DNA of 64,000 nt, from the NCBI GenBank assembly GCA_017450065.1, contig JAFSYI010000059.1, positions 1 to 64,000 of the forward strand, in the 5' to 3' direction. This document shows positions 1,360 through 9,357 of the stretch, piece after piece. The notes beneath the pieces are model-generated. The model ran no database searches. It was not told where the DNA came from and saw nothing but the letters and a program-made list of their open reading frames with translations. Source of the DNA: Lachnospiraceae bacterium. GTDB taxonomy: Bacteria > Bacillota > Clostridia > Lachnospirales > Lachnospiraceae. Position numbers and translations under genes: made by a program. The number at the start of each line of letters is the position of its first letter. The first letter of the stretch is position 1.

Positions 1360-4300
1360 ATGCGAAAATCGTGGAAAAAACCGGTGAAATACAATCTTAT
1401 CGCCATGGCATCAGCAGGCCTGCTGCTGTTATCAGCCTGTGATGTTAACTTTAATACCAATGGAACGATCAACAAATCGGACGAAATAACAGCCGGTTTG
1501 ACAGACAGCGAAGCCGACAGCATTATTGAAGGAATGTCCATGGATGAGAAGATTTCTCAGATGATAATCCCGGCATTCAGAACCTGGAATGAAGAAAACG
1601 TAACAGATCTTGAAGCATTTCCCGAGCTTAAGGAGGCGCTTAAGAAGCATCAGTATGGAGGAGTCATACTGTTTGGCGCCAATATTACAGGTACCGAACA
1701 GGTTACAAGATTTCTTGATGATCTGCAGGAGAACAACAGAGAGACCGGGAATGCATCTGTCCATATTCCGTATCTGACTGCTGTAGATGAGGAAGGCGGT
1801 AATGTCATACGATTGAATTCAGGAACACGTATGACCGGAAATATGGCAATAGGGGCGACGGAGGATGCAGTTTTAAATGCTGCAAAGACAGGAACCGTTA
1901 TTGGCGAGGAGCTTGAAGCTGTAGGGTTTAATACTGATTTTGCACCTGATATAGATGTAAATAATAATCCGGCAAACCCGATCATAGGTACGCGTTCTTT
2001 TTCCGATGATCCGGCGTTTGTTGCAGAGCTTGGAACGGCATATACCACAGGGCTCAAAAGAAGCAACGTAATTGCTACATATAAGCATTTCCCCGGACAT
2101 GGTGATACGGAAACGGACAGTCATATAGGTACTCCGTCTGTAGCAAAGACATACGAGGAGATTAAGGAAACAGAGCTGGTTCCGTTCAGAAGTGCAATAG
2201 AGAACGGTGCGGATATGATAATGACAGCTCATATAACTTATCCGCTTATTGATGATGAGGTAACATTCGGGGATGGCGTAACCAAAGGCATTTATCCCGC
2301 GACTATGTCAAAGAGGATGATAACGGATATTCTTCGTAATGATATGGGATACGATGGTGTAGTTGTAACAGATGCACTGGAGATGGACGCCATCAGAATG
2401 GCGGGGCTGGTTCCCGGTGAGGAGGATTCGGCCGAATATCGGATAAACATAGCCGAAAAGGTAATAAATGCGGGTGTGGATATCCTGTTGATCCCGGCTG
2501 ATCTTAAGGATAGCGATACCGCTTCATTTTATGATGAGTATATTTCAGGAATTGCGAAGAAGGTTGAAGCAGGCGATATAAGCGAAAACAGAATAAATGA
2601 GAGCGTAAGACGTATCCTTTCACTTAAGGTAAAATACGGGATAGCAGATATTTCCGGACCGACTGATTCTGATAATGATTCCGGTATAGATATTGAAAGC
2701 CGGGTTGCTGAGAGTCTTAAGACGGTCGGATCGGAATCACATCATGAGACAGAGATGGAGATAGCAAAAGAGGCGATAACCCTTATTAAGAATGATTCCG
2801 ATCTGCTGCCTTTGTCGAAGGACTGCGGCAATATCGTAGTGCTCGGACGGCTGAAGGATGATGCTGTAACGCTTAGCCATGCGATAAACGGGCTTAAAGA
2901 GAAAGAAATTATCGACCGTGATGCCGATATTCCGATAGAGTATTATTATGATCCGGCTTCGGATGAAAAGCTTCACTATCCTGATGAAATTAAAGAAAAG
3001 ATATCATCTGCTGATGTTGTCATAGGCTTCTCTCATGCATCAGGCAAGAATATCACTGATAACGAAAGTCCGCAATTTATTGCCTTGAAAACGGCTATTG
3101 AGGATACGCATAAGGCAGGGGGACGATTTGTTCTGATAAGTCAGAATCTTCCTTATGATGCGGCAGTATACCAGGATGCGGATGCAATAATCCTGGCTTA
3201 CCTCGGATCGGGTCTTAATATCGATCCTACGGAAAAGACCGAGAGTGGATCGGGACTTGTTGCACGCAATGCCAATATTCTGGCTGCTGTTGAGACCGTT
3301 TTCGGTATCAACAGCCCGAAGGGAAAGCTGCCGGTGAATGTCCCTGTGGTTGAGGAGCAGTCTGACGGAACGCTTGCTTACGGCGATGATTATCTGTATA
3401 AGAGGGGATATAGTCTGTCATATGACGAAGAAGTATCTTCCGGGGTAATGTCTGATGGACTCACCGGCTATACGCTCGAGCAGGTGGTTATCCTTTCGCG
3501 TCATAACCTGCGTGCCCCTCTTTCAAGCAACGGTTCCGTACCGCAGGAATTAACGCCTCATAAATGGATAAACTGGAGTGCCGGTCCAAGTGAGCTGACC
3601 GTAAAGGGTGGTATCCTGGAAACCAATATGGGCCAGTATTTCAGAAAATGGCTGGATGAGGAGGGACTGATATCCGAGAATTCCATACCTGCACCCGGTG
3701 AAGTACGTTTCTATGCCCGTGACAAGCAGCGATGCCGCGCAACGGCAAGGTATTTTGCTTCGGGTTTATTTCCGCTTGCTGATATTCCGGTTGAATATCC
3801 GGGAGCACCTTATAATTATGCGGATTTTATGAAACCAAACATCCATTTTTACTCCGATGATTATGCTGCGGCTGTAGAGGAGCAGGTGGCGCAAATGGGA
3901 GGCGATGCCGGTTTTAAAGGCATAAGTGAGCAAACATCAGGTGCTATAAAACTAATTATGGATACTGTTGATATGAAGAACAGCGAAGCCTACAGAAAAG
4001 GGAAATTCGGCAATCTCATGACAGACGAAAACGGCTACATCATGTCGCCGGGAGAAGAACCGGACGTTACCGGACCTGTTAAGACTGCAAGTCAGGTTGC
4101 TGATGCGCTGCTCCTTCAGTATTATGAGGAGACCGATGATAAGAAGGCTGCGTTTGGACATGATCTTACCGGGAAGGACTGGGAGACGATAGGCGGCTTT
4201 ATGACGACATATCTGAAAATGCGCCATGGTGCTCCTATGGCAGCGGTCAATATCACAGAGCCGCTGCTTGAAGAGCTGGAGGGTGAGCTTAAGAACGAAG

Positions 4301-4683
4301 ACCGTAAGCTGAGCTTTTTCTGCGCGCATGACTGCACTGTATTTGGTACCCTGACAGCGCTTTCGGCAGAACCGTATACGCTTCCGGACAGTATCGAAAC
4401 CATGACACCGATCGGTGTCAAACTGATGTTTGAAAGATGGCGTGACGAAGATGATAAGGTATGGTATCGTGTGAATCTTCTGTATCGCAGTACTGACCAG
4501 ATCCGTAACGCCGATGTGTTATCTCCCGATAATCCGCCGTTACGTTATGAGCTAAGCTTTAAGGGAGTGGAAACCAACGAGGATGGTCTTATTTCCGAGG
4601 AGGATCTGTTCAGACTCTTTGAGAAAGCGTTTGATACCTATTATGAACTTGAAGAGGAATATGTGCTGAATGCTGCAGCATGA
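1360..4683 (+). CDS. Lipoprotein fusing GH3 glycosidase (NagZ-like) to a glucose-1-phosphatase-type histidine acid phosphatase
   Basis: This 1107-residue protein starts with a lipoprotein signal (LLLLSAC, lipobox Cys about residue 27), so it should be anchored outside the membrane. Residues about 45-430 form a GH3 catalytic domain. It has the NagZ-type loop KHFPGHGDTETDSH (K242-H255), whose His/Asp pair supplies the acid/base in beta-N-acetylhexosaminidases, and the nucleophile D338 in VVTDALEMDAI. A GH3 C-terminal domain follows to about residue 690. Residues about 700-1100 are a complete histidine acid phosphatase with the RHNLRAP signature (R714-P720) and the HD pair (H990-D991). Its sequence resembles Escherichia coli Agp (RHNLRAPLxxNGS, TPxKW, QRxxATAxxF, EQxRNADxL). 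Both active sites look intact. Joint action on a phosphorylated sugar or glycan is inference; the substrate is unknown. Confidence 0.88.
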   Translation: MRKSWKKPVKYNLIAMASAGLLLLSACDVNFNTNGTINKSDEITAGLTDSEADSIIEGMSMDEKISQMIIPAFRTWNEENVTDLEAFPELKEALKKHQYGGVILFGANITGTEQVTRFLDDLQENNRETGNASVHIPYLTAVDEEGGNVIRLNSGTRMTGNMAIGATEDAVLNAAKTGTVIGEELEAVGFNTDFAPDIDVNNNPANPIIGTRSFSDDPAFVAELGTAYTTGLKRSNVIATYKHFPGHGDTETDSHIGTPSVAKTYEEIKETELVPFRSAIENGADMIMTAHITYPLIDDEVTFGDGVTKGIYPATMSKRMITDILRNDMGYDGVVVTDALEMDAIRMAGLVPGEEDSAEYRINIAEKVINAGVDILLIPADLKDSDTASFYDEYISGIAKKVEAGDISENRINESVRRILSLKVKYGIADISGPTDSDNDSGIDIESRVAESLKTVGSESHHETEMEIAKEAITLIKNDSDLLPLSKDCGNIVVLGRLKDDAVTLSHAINGLKEKEIIDRDADIPIEYYYDPASDEKLHYPDEIKEKISSADVVIGFSHASGKNITDNESPQFIALKTAIEDTHKAGGRFVLISQNLPYDAAVYQDADAIILAYLGSGLNIDPTEKTESGSGLVARNANILAAVETVFGINSPKGKLPVNVPVVEEQSDGTLAYGDDYLYKRGYSLSYDEEVSSGVMSDGLTGYTLEQVVILSRHNLRAPLSSNGSVPQELTPHKWINWSAGPSELTVKGGILETNMGQYFRKWLDEEGLISENSIPAPGEVRFYARDKQRCRATARYFASGLFPLADIPVEYPGAPYNYADFMKPNIHFYSDDYAAAVEEQVAQMGGDAGFKGISEQTSGAIKLIMDTVDMKNSEAYRKGKFGNLMTDENGYIMSPGEEPDVTGPVKTASQVADALLLQYYEETDDKKAAFGHDLTGKDWETIGGFMTTYLKMRHGAPMAAVNITEPLLEELEGELKNEDRKLSFFCAHDCTVFGTLTALSAEPYTLPDSIETMTPIGVKLMFERWRDEDDKVWYRVNLLYRSTDQIRNADVLSPDNPPLRYELSFKGVETNEDGLISEEDLFRLFEKAFDTYYELEEEYVLNAAA

Positions 4684-4686
4684 TGG

Positions 4687-4803
4687 AGGGGACCAGGGTG
4701 GGACCAGGTGGGACCAGGGGACGGTTCCTGGGACCAGGGGACGGTTCCCCGGTTCCCCAAATCGTTGGTCGGGAACCCCAGAACCGTCCCCCCGGTTCCC
4801 GGA
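4687..4803. repeat. REP cluster (three to four tandem copies)
   Basis: The stretch holds GGGACCAGG repeats, two direct copies of ACCAGGGGACGGTTCC and an inverted copy AGAACCGTCCCCCCGG. It fills the gap between the GH3 fusion and the alpha/beta hydrolase and stays open in the hydrolase frame, which could mislead start-site prediction. Confidence 0.85.
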
Positions 4804-4821
4804 TTTGGAAAGGAGAAAGAA

Positions 4822-5649
4822 TTGAAAGCTAAGAATGCTTTTGTTGAATTCGAGTACGATGAGGAGAATACATGTCCTGAGATATTTGAGTTAAATATCG
4901 TAAGCGGAGGATGTCATATATATGGATATTTACTGGCGCCTGATAAAAGGATAGAAGGGCCGTATCCTACTGTGATCATGTCTCATGGTTTTCCGGGCTA
5001 TACAACAAACAATGACCTGGAACTGTCGCTTATGAGAATGGGTTGTGTGGTAATTCATATGAACCACAGGGGCGCATGGGGAAGTGACGGGGATTATCTT
5101 TTCACCAATCTGAAGGATGATCTCATATCGATAACCAAATGGGCCCATAATCCTGCTATTGCGGATCAATACGGTATAGATGCGGACAATATCTTTCTTG
5201 TCGGACACAGTATGGGAGGACAGACTGTGCTCAATGCTGCCAAGGATCTTCCGTTTATAAAGGGAGTGGCTGCAATGGCTGCATATGACATCGGGGCCGC
5301 ATTCAGGTATAAAATGGAGAAGGATCTGTTCCTTATGATCGAGACCGAAGGCCAGTGCCTTAAGATGACTTCGGCCAGTGATGTTTTTGAAAATGCTCTG
5401 ATAAATCAGCAGGAGTTAAGTGTTCTGAACAGATATGAGAAGCTCACGGAACATAATGTTCTGCTTGTGGAGGCGACCATGGACACGATCACTCCACCGG
5501 ATATCATGCTTAAACCTCTTGCCGATATGCTTAAGAAAGCCGGAGCATCGATAAGTTACCGGTCCATAAGATCCAATCACAGTTTTGTGGGTCAGCGGAT
5601 GAAGCTTGCCGGGATCGTGGGCGAATGGATGGAGGCTGTCATAAAATGA
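4822..5649 (+). CDS. Alpha/beta-hydrolase family protein
   Basis: A 275-residue serine hydrolase of the prolyl-oligopeptidase/esterase type. The nucleophile elbow is VGHSMGG, the oxyanion-hole segment is MSHGFPGY, and the C-terminal half carries the expected acid (ATMDTITPP) and a histidine (IRSNHSFVG). No signal peptide is seen, so it should be cytoplasmic. I chose the TTG start because GGAAAGGAG lies just upstream. The frame stays open 38 codons further upstream, but those codons are REP repeat sequence and would give an unlikely Gly/Pro-rich leader. The substrate is unknown; an ester of an imported saccharide is one possibility given the setting. Confidence 0.75.
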   Translation: MKAKNAFVEFEYDEENTCPEIFELNIVSGGCHIYGYLLAPDKRIEGPYPTVIMSHGFPGYTTNNDLELSLMRMGCVVIHMNHRGAWGSDGDYLFTNLKDDLISITKWAHNPAIADQYGIDADNIFLVGHSMGGQTVLNAAKDLPFIKGVAAMAAYDIGAAFRYKMEKDLFLMIETEGQCLKMTSASDVFENALINQQELSVLNRYEKLTEHNVLLVEATMDTITPPDIMLKPLADMLKKAGASISYRSIRSNHSFVGQRMKLAGIVGEWMEAVIK

Positions 5650-7177: not shown

Positions 7178-8257
7178 ATGAAAGATTTGATTGAAGCTGC
7201 AAAGAGAGATGAGCAGGAAAGAGAAAAGTTTATAAGAGACAACGAACAGACCATTCTTAAGATAGCGTCAAGAGTTACAGGAAGATATATAACAAAAAGC
7301 GACGATGAATGGTCTGTTGCTCTGCTTTCCTTTAATAAGGCAATAGATACCTTCGAGGATTCAAGAGGAGATTTTACGGCATATGCCTCGGTTGTGATAA
7401 GGAGGGCGCTGACCGATCATTACAGGTCGGAGAAGAAGTATTCCCCGGAGATACCGGTCAGCCATGAAATGCTTACCGGTGAAGGAGAGTATGAGGAGAA
7501 CAGCGAGGTCTTAAAGGCCGTATCAAGAGACAGCGCAGAGGAACAGGACAGGCTTTCAGAAGCGTCGGGAGAAGCCATTGACAGAGAAGAATGGAACAGA
7601 AGAAGCGTTAAGGAGATCGTAAAGGAATATGACAGGATAAAGGATGGCGGAAGAGAGAATAAGCCTGACGGGAATGGAACCGGGCAATATCCCGGCAGTA
7701 TTACAGACGGACGTGATGACCGGGAAATACTGCAGAATGATCAGAGAATGATAAAGGATGATCAGGAAGGACAACAGGGTGATCGCAATGGTCAACAGAA
7801 CGAATTGGACCTGCAAACGGATGAGAGGGACAGGCAGATGAATGATCCCGGAGGGAAGCAGGGAGATACAGGGATACAGAAGAATGAGACAGACGGGCAG
7901 CAGTGGAAACAGCCGGTACAGCAGAATGATCAGACAGAGCAACAGTGGAATCCGCCGGTACAGCAGAACGGCTCGCAGGAGCAGCCGGGGACTCCGCCAT
8001 TGCAACCGGGTGATTCAGTAAAACAGCCGGATGGTCCGGCTGAACAGCCAAACAGCGGGGACGGATACGGCGGACAGGCAGACCCGAACAGGGAAGATGG
8101 GGTTAGAACACAGGAAGGAACCGGGCAGGTACAGGAGGATCCGGGAAGACCGCAGGGGGGATCGGAACCGTCATGGAATGAAGGCGGAGCCCCGCGGGAA
8201 GATGGCGGCCTGTTACCGGATGATCATAGCAGAACCCGGAGCGAGGACCGGAACTGA
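7178..8257 (+). CDS. Sigma-I-like protein: sigma region 2 fused to a low-complexity tail
   Basis: Residues 1 to about 95 match the N-terminal half of Bacillus/Clostridium SigI: FIRDNEQTILKIASRVTGRYI, DDEWSVALLSFNKAIDTF and FTAYASVVIRRALTDHYRSEKKY. In SigI this part binds core polymerase and the -10 element. A charged linker (about 95-155) still resembles the SigI middle region. The C-terminal SigI domain, with its helix-turn-helix, is absent. About 190 residues rich in Gln, Asp, Asn, Gly and Pro replace it (DRNGQQNELDLQTDERDRQ, QQNDQTEQQWNPPVQQNG), with no membrane segment. Other frames do not restore the missing domain. No RsgI anti-sigma gene is adjacent. It could be a modified sigma factor, a competitor or a decaying copy. 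Confidence 0.75.
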   Translation: MKDLIEAAKRDEQEREKFIRDNEQTILKIASRVTGRYITKSDDEWSVALLSFNKAIDTFEDSRGDFTAYASVVIRRALTDHYRSEKKYSPEIPVSHEMLTGEGEYEENSEVLKAVSRDSAEEQDRLSEASGEAIDREEWNRRSVKEIVKEYDRIKDGGRENKPDGNGTGQYPGSITDGRDDREILQNDQRMIKDDQEGQQGDRNGQQNELDLQTDERDRQMNDPGGKQGDTGIQKNETDGQQWKQPVQQNDQTEQQWNPPVQQNGSQEQPGTPPLQPGDSVKQPDGPAEQPNSGDGYGGQADPNREDGVRTQEGTGQVQEDPGRPQGGSEPSWNEGGAPREDGGLLPDDHSRTRSEDRN

Positions 8258-8352
8258 ACGGTCCGGGTGCCGGTCTGTTTAATACGTGGTGAAATTGAAT
8301 TGTACAAACTGTAATTGAATAGGATCATTTATACAGAAAGCGGTACGCGAAT

Positions 8353-9357
8353 ATGAAGACAGAAAACAGGAAGATCACGATAGATGATGTTGCCAGGGCT
8401 CTTAATATATCCAAGACCACTGTTTCGAGAGCCATATCCGGAAAAGGCAGGGTCGGAGAGAAGACCCGGAACATGGTCATGGAATATATTAAGGAGAACA
8501 ACTACAGACCGAATCCCATCGCGAAGGGTCTGGCCGAGAGCAGGACATATAATATTGCAGTTGTATGGCCGGCTGATTACGACTATATGGATCTTCCGTT
8601 TTTTCAGCGCTGTGTCGTAGGCATGAATAAGATCACATCCGCAAATGATATGGATATACTGATCTGCATGACCAGAGGTGAGGATATAGGTGAGCTTGCA
8701 AGGATAGTTGAAAATAAGAAGGCAGACGGAGTGATACTTACAAGAACTCTTATAGAAGATCCTGCGGCTGATTATCTTATTTCCAGAGGATTTCCGTTCG
8801 TTTCGATCGGGACCAGCACCAATGATGAGATTATAACAGTAGATAACAATAACTTTGATGCATGCAGAGAGCTTACTGCGATACTGGCAACGCAGAAGAC
8901 AAAAAAACTGGCACTACTGGGAGGAGATCCGAATCATGTGATCACGCATACCAGATATAAGGGTTTTGAGGCGGGTCTTAAACAGGCGGGTGCAAGAGTC
9001 AATGAGAAGCTTGTAAACCTTGGGGTGAATACAGAACGCAGGGTTTCCGAGCTGTTAAATGAATACATGAAGCTTGGAGCAGAGTGCATCATATGTATGG
9101 ATGACATGCTCTGCGACATGCTGATCAGGTGCTGCCGAAATGAGGGAGTGGATATACCGGGTGATCTAAGGATTGCCTCGTTCTATGACAGCAAGCTGCT
9201 GGCTAATTCGGATCCTCCGATAACCTCTCTTCATTTCGATGATTTTATGATAGGACAGCGTGCTGCCGAAATGATCCTCAGACTAACAAACGGTGATGAG
9301 GTTGAAAAAGAAGTTATAGATGAATACGAGGTTATTTTAAAAGGCAGTACGAAATAA
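8353..9357 (+). CDS. LacI-family transcriptional regulator
   Basis: A 334-residue repressor with the N-terminal LacI helix-turn-helix (ITIDDVARALNISKTTVSRAISGKGRVGEKTR) and hinge helix region, then a periplasmic-binding-protein-like sensor domain (VDNNNFDACRELT, ALLGGDPNHVITHTRYKGF, ASFYDSKLLANSDPPITSL). It lies just before the importer and beta-galactosidase genes. LacI-like operators are found between its stop codon and the importer promoter, so it most likely controls that operon in response to an imported galactoside. No good ribosome binding site precedes the ATG. Confidence 0.9.
   Translation: MKTENRKITIDDVARALNISKTTVSRAISGKGRVGEKTRNMVMEYIKENNYRPNPIAKGLAESRTYNIAVVWPADYDYMDLPFFQRCVVGMNKITSANDMDILICMTRGEDIGELARIVENKKADGVILTRTLIEDPAADYLISRGFPFVSIGTSTNDEIITVDNNNFDACRELTAILATQKTKKLALLGGDPNHVITHTRYKGFEAGLKQAGARVNEKLVNLGVNTERRVSELLNEYMKLGAECIICMDDMLCDMLIRCCRNEGVDIPGDLRIASFYDSKLLANSDPPITSLHFDDFMIGQRAAEMILRLTNGDEVEKEVIDEYEVILKGSTK

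Follow-up and report, generated by a model that had tools for sequence, protein, structure and literature searches.

A 64,000-nucleotide stretch of DNA from a Lachnospiraceae bacterium (contig JAFSYI010000059.1, positions 1 to 64,000; here called the window) carries a gene in which a glycoside hydrolase family 3 (GH3) domain and a histidine acid phosphatase (HAP) domain appear on a single lipoprotein, and it raises the question of whether the two enzymes truly share one polypeptide and, if so, what they might do together. The gene occupies positions 1360 to 4683 as a single uninterrupted frame of 1,107 residues that starts with ATG, immediately 5′ of which lies an AGAGGA stretch; this and the other features of the window described below are on the plus strand unless noted otherwise. 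Residues 1 to 27 (positions 1360 to 1440) resemble a signal peptide with the lipobox LLSAC, in which Cys27 is the predicted site of lipidation. Lipobox calls were made with a crude pattern rather than a signal-peptide predictor, and the same pattern was also matched by several standalone GH3 relatives. In phmmer searches of structure-derived sequences, residues 42 to 669 matched B. subtilis YbbD/NagZ (E value, 7.9e-110) and residues 703 to 1079 matched E. coli Agp (E value, about 1e-64), with a linker of about 14 residues (positions 3424 to 3465) at the joint. An earlier note on this DNA had proposed a GH3 glycosidase and an acid phosphatase on one lipoprotein and had named the residues K242, H255, D338, R714HNLRAP, and H990-D991; the architecture was borne out by Pfam, by the structure-sequence matches, and by lipobox Cys27, and every residue was found at its named position. 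We conclude that the protein is one lipobox-bearing polypeptide with two complete predicted active sites.

The GH3 half begins with a TIM barrel (residues 61 to 422; positions 1540 to 2625) that matched Pfam PF00933 Glyco_hydro_3 at 2.5e-85 and continues with a GH3 C-terminal domain (residues 473 to 688; positions 2776 to 3423) that matched PF01915 Glyco_hydro_3_C at 7.2e-10. In the full-length structure model the GH3 half was confident, with barrel blocks mostly above 85 in predicted local distance difference test (pLDDT) score and dips to 63; Foldseek ranked YbbD (3bmx) first, and ranks 1 to 10 were all hexosaminidases or N-acetylglucosaminidases. The barrel contains the motif K242HFPGHGDTETDSH255 (positions 2083 to 2124), in which we take D253 and H255 to be the acid-base dyad of NagZ enzymes, and K242, D253, and H255 were nearly invariant in an alignment of 25 rows. 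An Asp-His dyad is stated for NagZ in PMC6572805. The expected catalytic nucleophile, D338 (positions 2371 to 2373), aligned with D318, the residue mutated in B. subtilis NagZ structure 4gyj. Thus, the GH3 barrel, the KHxxGHG motif, and the D-x-H dyad were all present, and the nearest neighbors were NagZ/YbbD proteins and not glucosidases. The NagZ equivalog model PRK05337 gave 177.6 bits and did not reach its cutoff of 207, a shortfall that touches the naming of the domain more than its type because the 340-position model spans only a barrel-sized protein. A plain β-glucosidase was ruled out by the nearest neighbors and the motif, and hexoside activity, which the earlier note had allowed as a substrate option to be assayed on pNP-glucose, looks unlikely for a domain that sits in the NagZ/YbbD branch with a D-x-H dyad. 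We conclude that the GH3 half is a predicted β-N-acetylglucosaminidase domain of the NagZ/YbbD type.

The phosphatase half (residues 703 to 1079; positions 3466 to 4596) aligned by phmmer with E. coli Agp (6rmr and 1nt4) at 34% identity across 95% of the domain and matched Pfam His_Phos_2 (HAP branch 2) at 1e-15, scoring 58.5 bits against a cutoff of 23.6; of two matching stretches, the better one covered residues 705 to 814. For comparison among relatives, 31 HAP loci were entered and three short ones (L050, L051, and L054) were dropped, leaving 28 rows; partial or remnant loci (L035/L052, L053, L055, L146, L147, and L148) lay outside this set, and further loci of these genes were duplicates. 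Residues R714, H715, R718, R791, H990, and D991 were kept in all 28 domains. They include the R714-H715-N-L-R718-A-P motif (positions 3499 to 3519), in which H715 is the expected phosphorylated nucleophile, and the H990-D991 pair (positions 4327 to 4332), in which D991 is the expected general acid. A Glu at the position of Agp E196, which we presume to be a specificity gate, was kept in 27 of 28. H715 aligned with Agp His18, a residue changed in solved variants, and D991 aligned with the Asp of the Agp HD motif. PMC8938923 gives His18 as the nucleophile and Asp290 as the general acid of Agp; the term "specificity gate" is absent from it.

Profile and sequence scores were consistent with that assignment. 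The best match was Agp at 224.8 bits versus 96.3 bits for AppA phytases, and the NCBIfam model PRK10173 gave 270.7 bits versus 126.9 bits for PRK10172, so that a phytase was the weaker candidate by scores, with inositol phosphatase activity still a possible property of the domain. The PRK10173 score was nonetheless under the 425-bit cutoff of that Agp equivalog, and because identity was also just 34%, we regard the domain as Agp-like and not as Agp. The strong likeness to E. coli Agp that had been noticed from the sequence was upheld by the alignment and the hidden Markov model scores and includes a nearly full-length domain, the RHNLRAP-type and HD motifs, and the Glu aligned to E196. The two differ in that the window domain is C-terminal on a lipoprotein, whereas Agp is a free periplasmic enzyme, and in that HDSN, the sequence in Agp and in most of the 28 relatives, is HDCT in the window domain. 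We conclude that the second half is an acid phosphomonoesterase domain of the Agp type whose predicted active site is complete. Separately, one remnant (L035:5770-6300, the same sequence as L052) holds the final 100 phosphatase residues in frame with 77 unrelated residues and is likely left over from recombination.

A second genome carries the same fusion. The metagenome-assembled genome RUI289 (locus L004) encodes both domains in one frame, with about 95% DNA identity at this locus, and its phosphatase is 99.5% identical to that of the window and has the same catalytic motifs. The same esterase-like gene follows in L004 as in the window, and the beginning of the gene lies on another RUI289 contig (L025), preceded there by the transposase-like open reading frame (ORF) that is also upstream in the window. 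The L004 and L025 contigs share an exact 141-base overlap at their ends, inside the GH3 part, and RUI289 contig names start with k141, which fits adjacent contigs of a k=141 assembly. An assembly artifact or a sequencing join of two genes was ruled out by the occurrence of the in-frame fusion and the gene order in a separate assembly. We conclude that both are genuine.

The fusion was seen only in these two of the genomes searched. Among 37 related loci in genome contigs, many with rumen sample names and most from Lachnospiraceae, just one (L004) held both domains in a single frame, with the C-terminal partner not assessable for loci that run off their contigs (e.g., L021 and L025). Among 37 genomes of the genus, matches across both halves occurred in the window genome and in G019, which we count as one organism with RUI289 since its matches coincide with L004 and L025 in position and in the portion of sequence shown. 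Across 397 genomes of the family only the window's own matches covered both halves, in a search that scored at most two candidates per genome and kept matches to 1e-40, such that weaker ones can be missed. Finally, the phosphatase had a match in 12 of 392 genomes of the order, the window's included; further standalone phosphatases were found and no further GH3 fusion.

Trees and boundaries pointed to how the gene may have arisen. The two GH3-HAP rows formed one group with support of 100/100 both in the 28-row phosphatase tree and in the GH3 tree, for which 38 loci were given, 36 of them different. The start of the window linker marks the end, to within a few residues, of the four standalone GH3 relatives that were compared, and a signal peptide is present in N-terminal phosphatases (L129, L134, and L050) but absent from the fused one. 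The fusion would have arisen once, and probably recently, when a lipoprotein GH3 gene became joined at its end to the mature-protein portion of a phosphatase gene, in the same kind of event that may have given other secreted fusions in Lachnospiraceae. Two close GH3 relatives leave the domain at the same boundary, one (L024) into a HAD phosphatase and the other (L005) into a prephenate dehydratase. These represent separate joins, as each groups with a standalone GH3 protein and not with the window in the GH3 tree. In 150-base bins, the window and RUI289 copies showed a patchwork of 82 to 100% nucleotide identity, with the phosphatase part near 99%, which suggests recombination. We conclude that the GH3-HAP pairing has, on the evidence of both trees, a single predicted origin.

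Both domains also occurred with other partners. Distant GH3 relatives were fused to NamZ (L122 and L123), to a PF00144 serine hydrolase (L121), or to both (L120), and L127 carries an N-terminal DUF3089, a module that was absent from the query set and left L127 labeled as alone in the GH3 tree. The L120 frame (L120:2539-7842; 1,768 residues) joins the PF00144 serine hydrolase, presumably an AmiE, to a NagZ-type GH3 domain and NamZ. It resembles the window protein in using a NagZ-type GH3 domain as one module of a multienzyme lipoprotein with a cell wall enzyme, but its GH3 domain is only 42% identical and it has no phosphatase. GH3 domains of this type are, therefore, a fusion hub in Lachnospiraceae. 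Two further loci were observed in passing: L005:5962-8856, from isolate MC2017, encodes a lipoprotein with GH3 and a full prephenate dehydratase, for which a surface location is odd, and in L020:1211-4870, from Oribacterium sp. P6A1, the GH3 domain is split by a 481-residue ORF (positions 2897 to 4339) that may be an inserted element.

On the phosphatase side, 9 of the 28 longer phosphatases had a second domain: GH3 in two, HAD in three plus a HAD fragment in one, nucleoside hydrolase in two, and aminotransferase in one. The order was HAP-HAD in L129 and HAD-HAP in L131 and L132, and one group of five phosphatases held four architectures, all within one genus if L004 is G019. The aminotransferase fusion (L128:585-3818), from a genome of the same genus, has an apparent signal peptide; for its enzyme, Pfam supports only a class I/II aminotransferase. 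The GH3-HAD (L024), HAP-HAD, and HAD-HAP proteins thus use the same modules in the same family as the window protein, L024 even at the same GH3 joint, but in other pairings, and L129 lacks a lipobox by the crude pattern. As a side observation, the end of the HAD-HAP gene in L132 is overlapped by an ORF (positions 7559 to 8545) for a lipoprotein-like prephenate dehydratase.

HAD phosphatases added further combinations. A search for them matched 26 of 397 genomes in the family and 28 of 37 in the genus; 12 regions were examined, with Pfam run on L205, L207, L208, and L209 and on neighbors in L205 and L210. L207 combines HAD with VanY and a C39 peptidase, L208:2574-5051 and L209:3-1844 join a VanX-family D-Ala-D-Ala dipeptidase to HAD (in L208 with YkuD in front), L211 is a double HAD, and L205, L206, and L215 have HAD with a long C-terminal region; in the remaining five of the 12 regions no second module was seen. 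Phosphatases were thus paired with cell wall enzymes in four combinations (GH3-HAP, GH3-HAD, VanX-HAD, and HAD-VanY), and the pairing is recurrent as a raw count, to be read without a baseline rate for fusions of secreted domains. Neither GH3 nor HAP, however, is restricted to cell wall partners. The window fusion seems to be an instance of a broader Lachnospiraceae tendency to join secreted phosphatases to other enzymes.

What the pairing accomplishes can be weighed against this background. In the reading that we favor, and to which we give about an even chance, the protein is a surface-anchored two-enzyme lipoprotein in which separate enzymes are tethered for salvage of amino sugar and phosphate at the surface. 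The GH3 half would cut terminal N-acetylglucosamine (GlcNAc) from muropeptides or other GlcNAc-containing glycans near the cell, and the phosphatase half, via a phosphohistidine at H715, would dephosphorylate small phosphomonoesters such as sugar phosphates. The two sites would act side by side without channeling, such that importable amino sugar and phosphate could both be freed at the surface. Consistent with such tethering, both active sites are intact and the joint falls cleanly at the domain boundary. Furthermore, because phosphatase partners vary (HAD, nucleoside hydrolase, and aminotransferase), the domain fits a general phosphomonoesterase better than an enzyme specialized for amino sugars. 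Other points weigh against tethered salvage. The fusion was seen in only two genomes, which weakens the case for selection on the pairing; most of the phosphatase half scores below pLDDT 50 in the structure model, so that the domain arrangement is not readable from it; and the GH3-HAD, HAD-VanX, and HAD-VanY fusions hint at a coupling that is tighter and more specific to the cell wall than cotethering.

That hint leads to an explanation in which both sites act on one phosphorylated cell wall substrate, such that the phosphatase would strip off a phosphate group that hinders the release of GlcNAc or goes with it and GH3 would cut the same fragment, for example, GlcNAc-1-phosphate or N-acetylmuramic acid-6-phosphate (MurNAc-6-P) left at teichoic acid linkage units. 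One GH3 group carries two unrelated phosphatases at a shared boundary, HAP in the window and HAD in L024, and both VanX and VanY occur in fusions with secreted HAD proteins. The window genome also encodes a HAD-type lipoprotein of 712 residues (L205:4432-6567, on contig C52), the C-terminal 300 residues or so of which had no Pfam match, next to an AMP-binding gene followed by one 650-residue ORF and then an MBOAT gene, surroundings that we take to be dlt-like. In Pseudomonas, NagZ acts in the wall-recycling pathway of MupP. PMC5371407 describes MupP as a HAD phosphatase of MurNAc-6-P in wall recycling, a precedent for a phosphatase in that process, but one of a different superfamily from HAP. 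Partners such as nucleoside hydrolase and aminotransferase for HAP, and prephenate dehydratase for GH3, moreover, do not suggest a shared wall substrate.

The distribution of muropeptide salvage genes also bears on a shared substrate. In B. subtilis, YbbD/NagZ is accompanied by NamZ and MurQ. The window protein resembles that YbbD/NagZ (3bmx and 4gyj) in being a named lipoprotein with a two-domain GH3, the KHFPGHGD...DSH motif, and the nucleophile position, but differs in adding a phosphatase domain and in its genomic company. MurQ was above cutoff in 0 of 37 genus genomes, compared with 5 of 14 controls in the same search. Of the 37, 4 had NamZ (as did 3 of the 14 controls, B. subtilis included), but it was not found in the window genome, which is 88% complete; there, the MurQ and NamZ components of the Gram-positive NamZ-NagZ-AmiE-MurQ route were thus both missing from what was recovered. 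In 34 of the 37 genomes MurQ had weak partial matches, all below cutoff; most were in frames of roughly 600 residues, and they were rejected because they appeared to represent the GlmS SIS domain. It is therefore unlikely that MurNAc-6-P is used by the known route, which makes it a less likely explanation for the pairing; the likely gains are then GlcNAc and phosphate. The single substrate carrying both sugar and phosphate put forward in the earlier note is somewhat favored by the GH3-HAD join and the HAD-VanX and HAD-VanY fusions and disfavored by the partners with no such substrate and by the MurQ result; on balance, we consider it unlikely.

A relay between the two sites has some appeal but is quite improbable. 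In such a relay, GH3 would act as a phosphorylase with phosphate as its acceptor and form GlcNAc-1-phosphate, which the Agp-type domain would hydrolyze, giving net hydrolysis with the phosphate returned. As cited in PMC6572805, some GH3 N-acetylglucosaminidases are reported as phosphorylases, and according to PMC8938923, E. coli Agp acts unusually well on glucose-1-phosphate and glucose-6-phosphate. PMC6572805, however, reports that LpqI, a NagZ lipoprotein, yielded GlcNAc and not GlcNAc-1-phosphate and cites another GH3 enzyme as lacking phosphorylase activity. Moreover, undoing phosphorolysis would bring no gain over hydrolysis.

The locus itself raises the prospect that the fusion is largely neutral, a young join in a repeat-rich recombining region that left unrelated surface enzymes sharing an anchor, which we regard as rather unlikely. 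The gene lies between repeats of the GGGGACGGTTCC type, one upstream on the minus strand (positions 1154 to 1165) and three directly downstream (positions 4717 to 4791, no strand assigned), and beside an upstream ORF (positions 378 to 1142) resembling a REP-associated tyrosine transposase (NCBIfam NF047646, 75.1 bits, just under the cutoff of 80). Allowing at most one mismatch, 14 such repeats were found in the window versus 0.13 expected by shuffling; they span positions 1154 to 57342, are mostly intergenic, and may have helped in making the fusion. The restriction to two genomes, the identity patchwork between the two copies, and the great variety of fusion partners in Lachnospiraceae all fit a neutral join, but the catalytic motifs of both halves are kept in both copies, and phosphatases occur with cell wall enzymes in four combinations.

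Returning to surface salvage, a broader form of it is conceivable, though on the doubtful side, in which rumen-type Lachnospiraceae run a modular salvage guild. HAD would be joined to NagZ, VanX, or VanY, HAP would be joined to NagZ, and HAP and HAD would be joined together, since wall fragments would carry phosphate needing removal outside the cell before uptake, and the window protein would be the NagZ-HAP member. If the pairing is functional, the protein becomes a candidate for the joint release of amino sugar and phosphate at the cell surface, and its sites, each of which can be inactivated separately, offer a handle on extracellular dephosphorylation of wall fragments in Gram-positive bacteria. 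The network of GH3-HAP, GH3-HAD, HAP-HAD, HAD-VanX, and HAD-VanY proteins likewise provides gene fusion clues for secreted phosphatases. No description of a GH3-HAP pairing was found in open-access literature judged by titles and abstracts, with subscription papers and architecture databases outside the search, and the earlier statement that no characterized enzyme has this pairing agrees with that outcome. We rate the protein as a multidomain surface enzyme of a known kind in which two known families are newly combined.

A defense system was considered for the locus and set aside, as PADLOC gave no match. Downstream of the fused gene, an ORF (positions 4708 to 5649) resembles an esterase or α/β-hydrolase by weak matches that were all under cutoff. 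Its true start is probably later than annotated, as its first residues read through repeat DNA.

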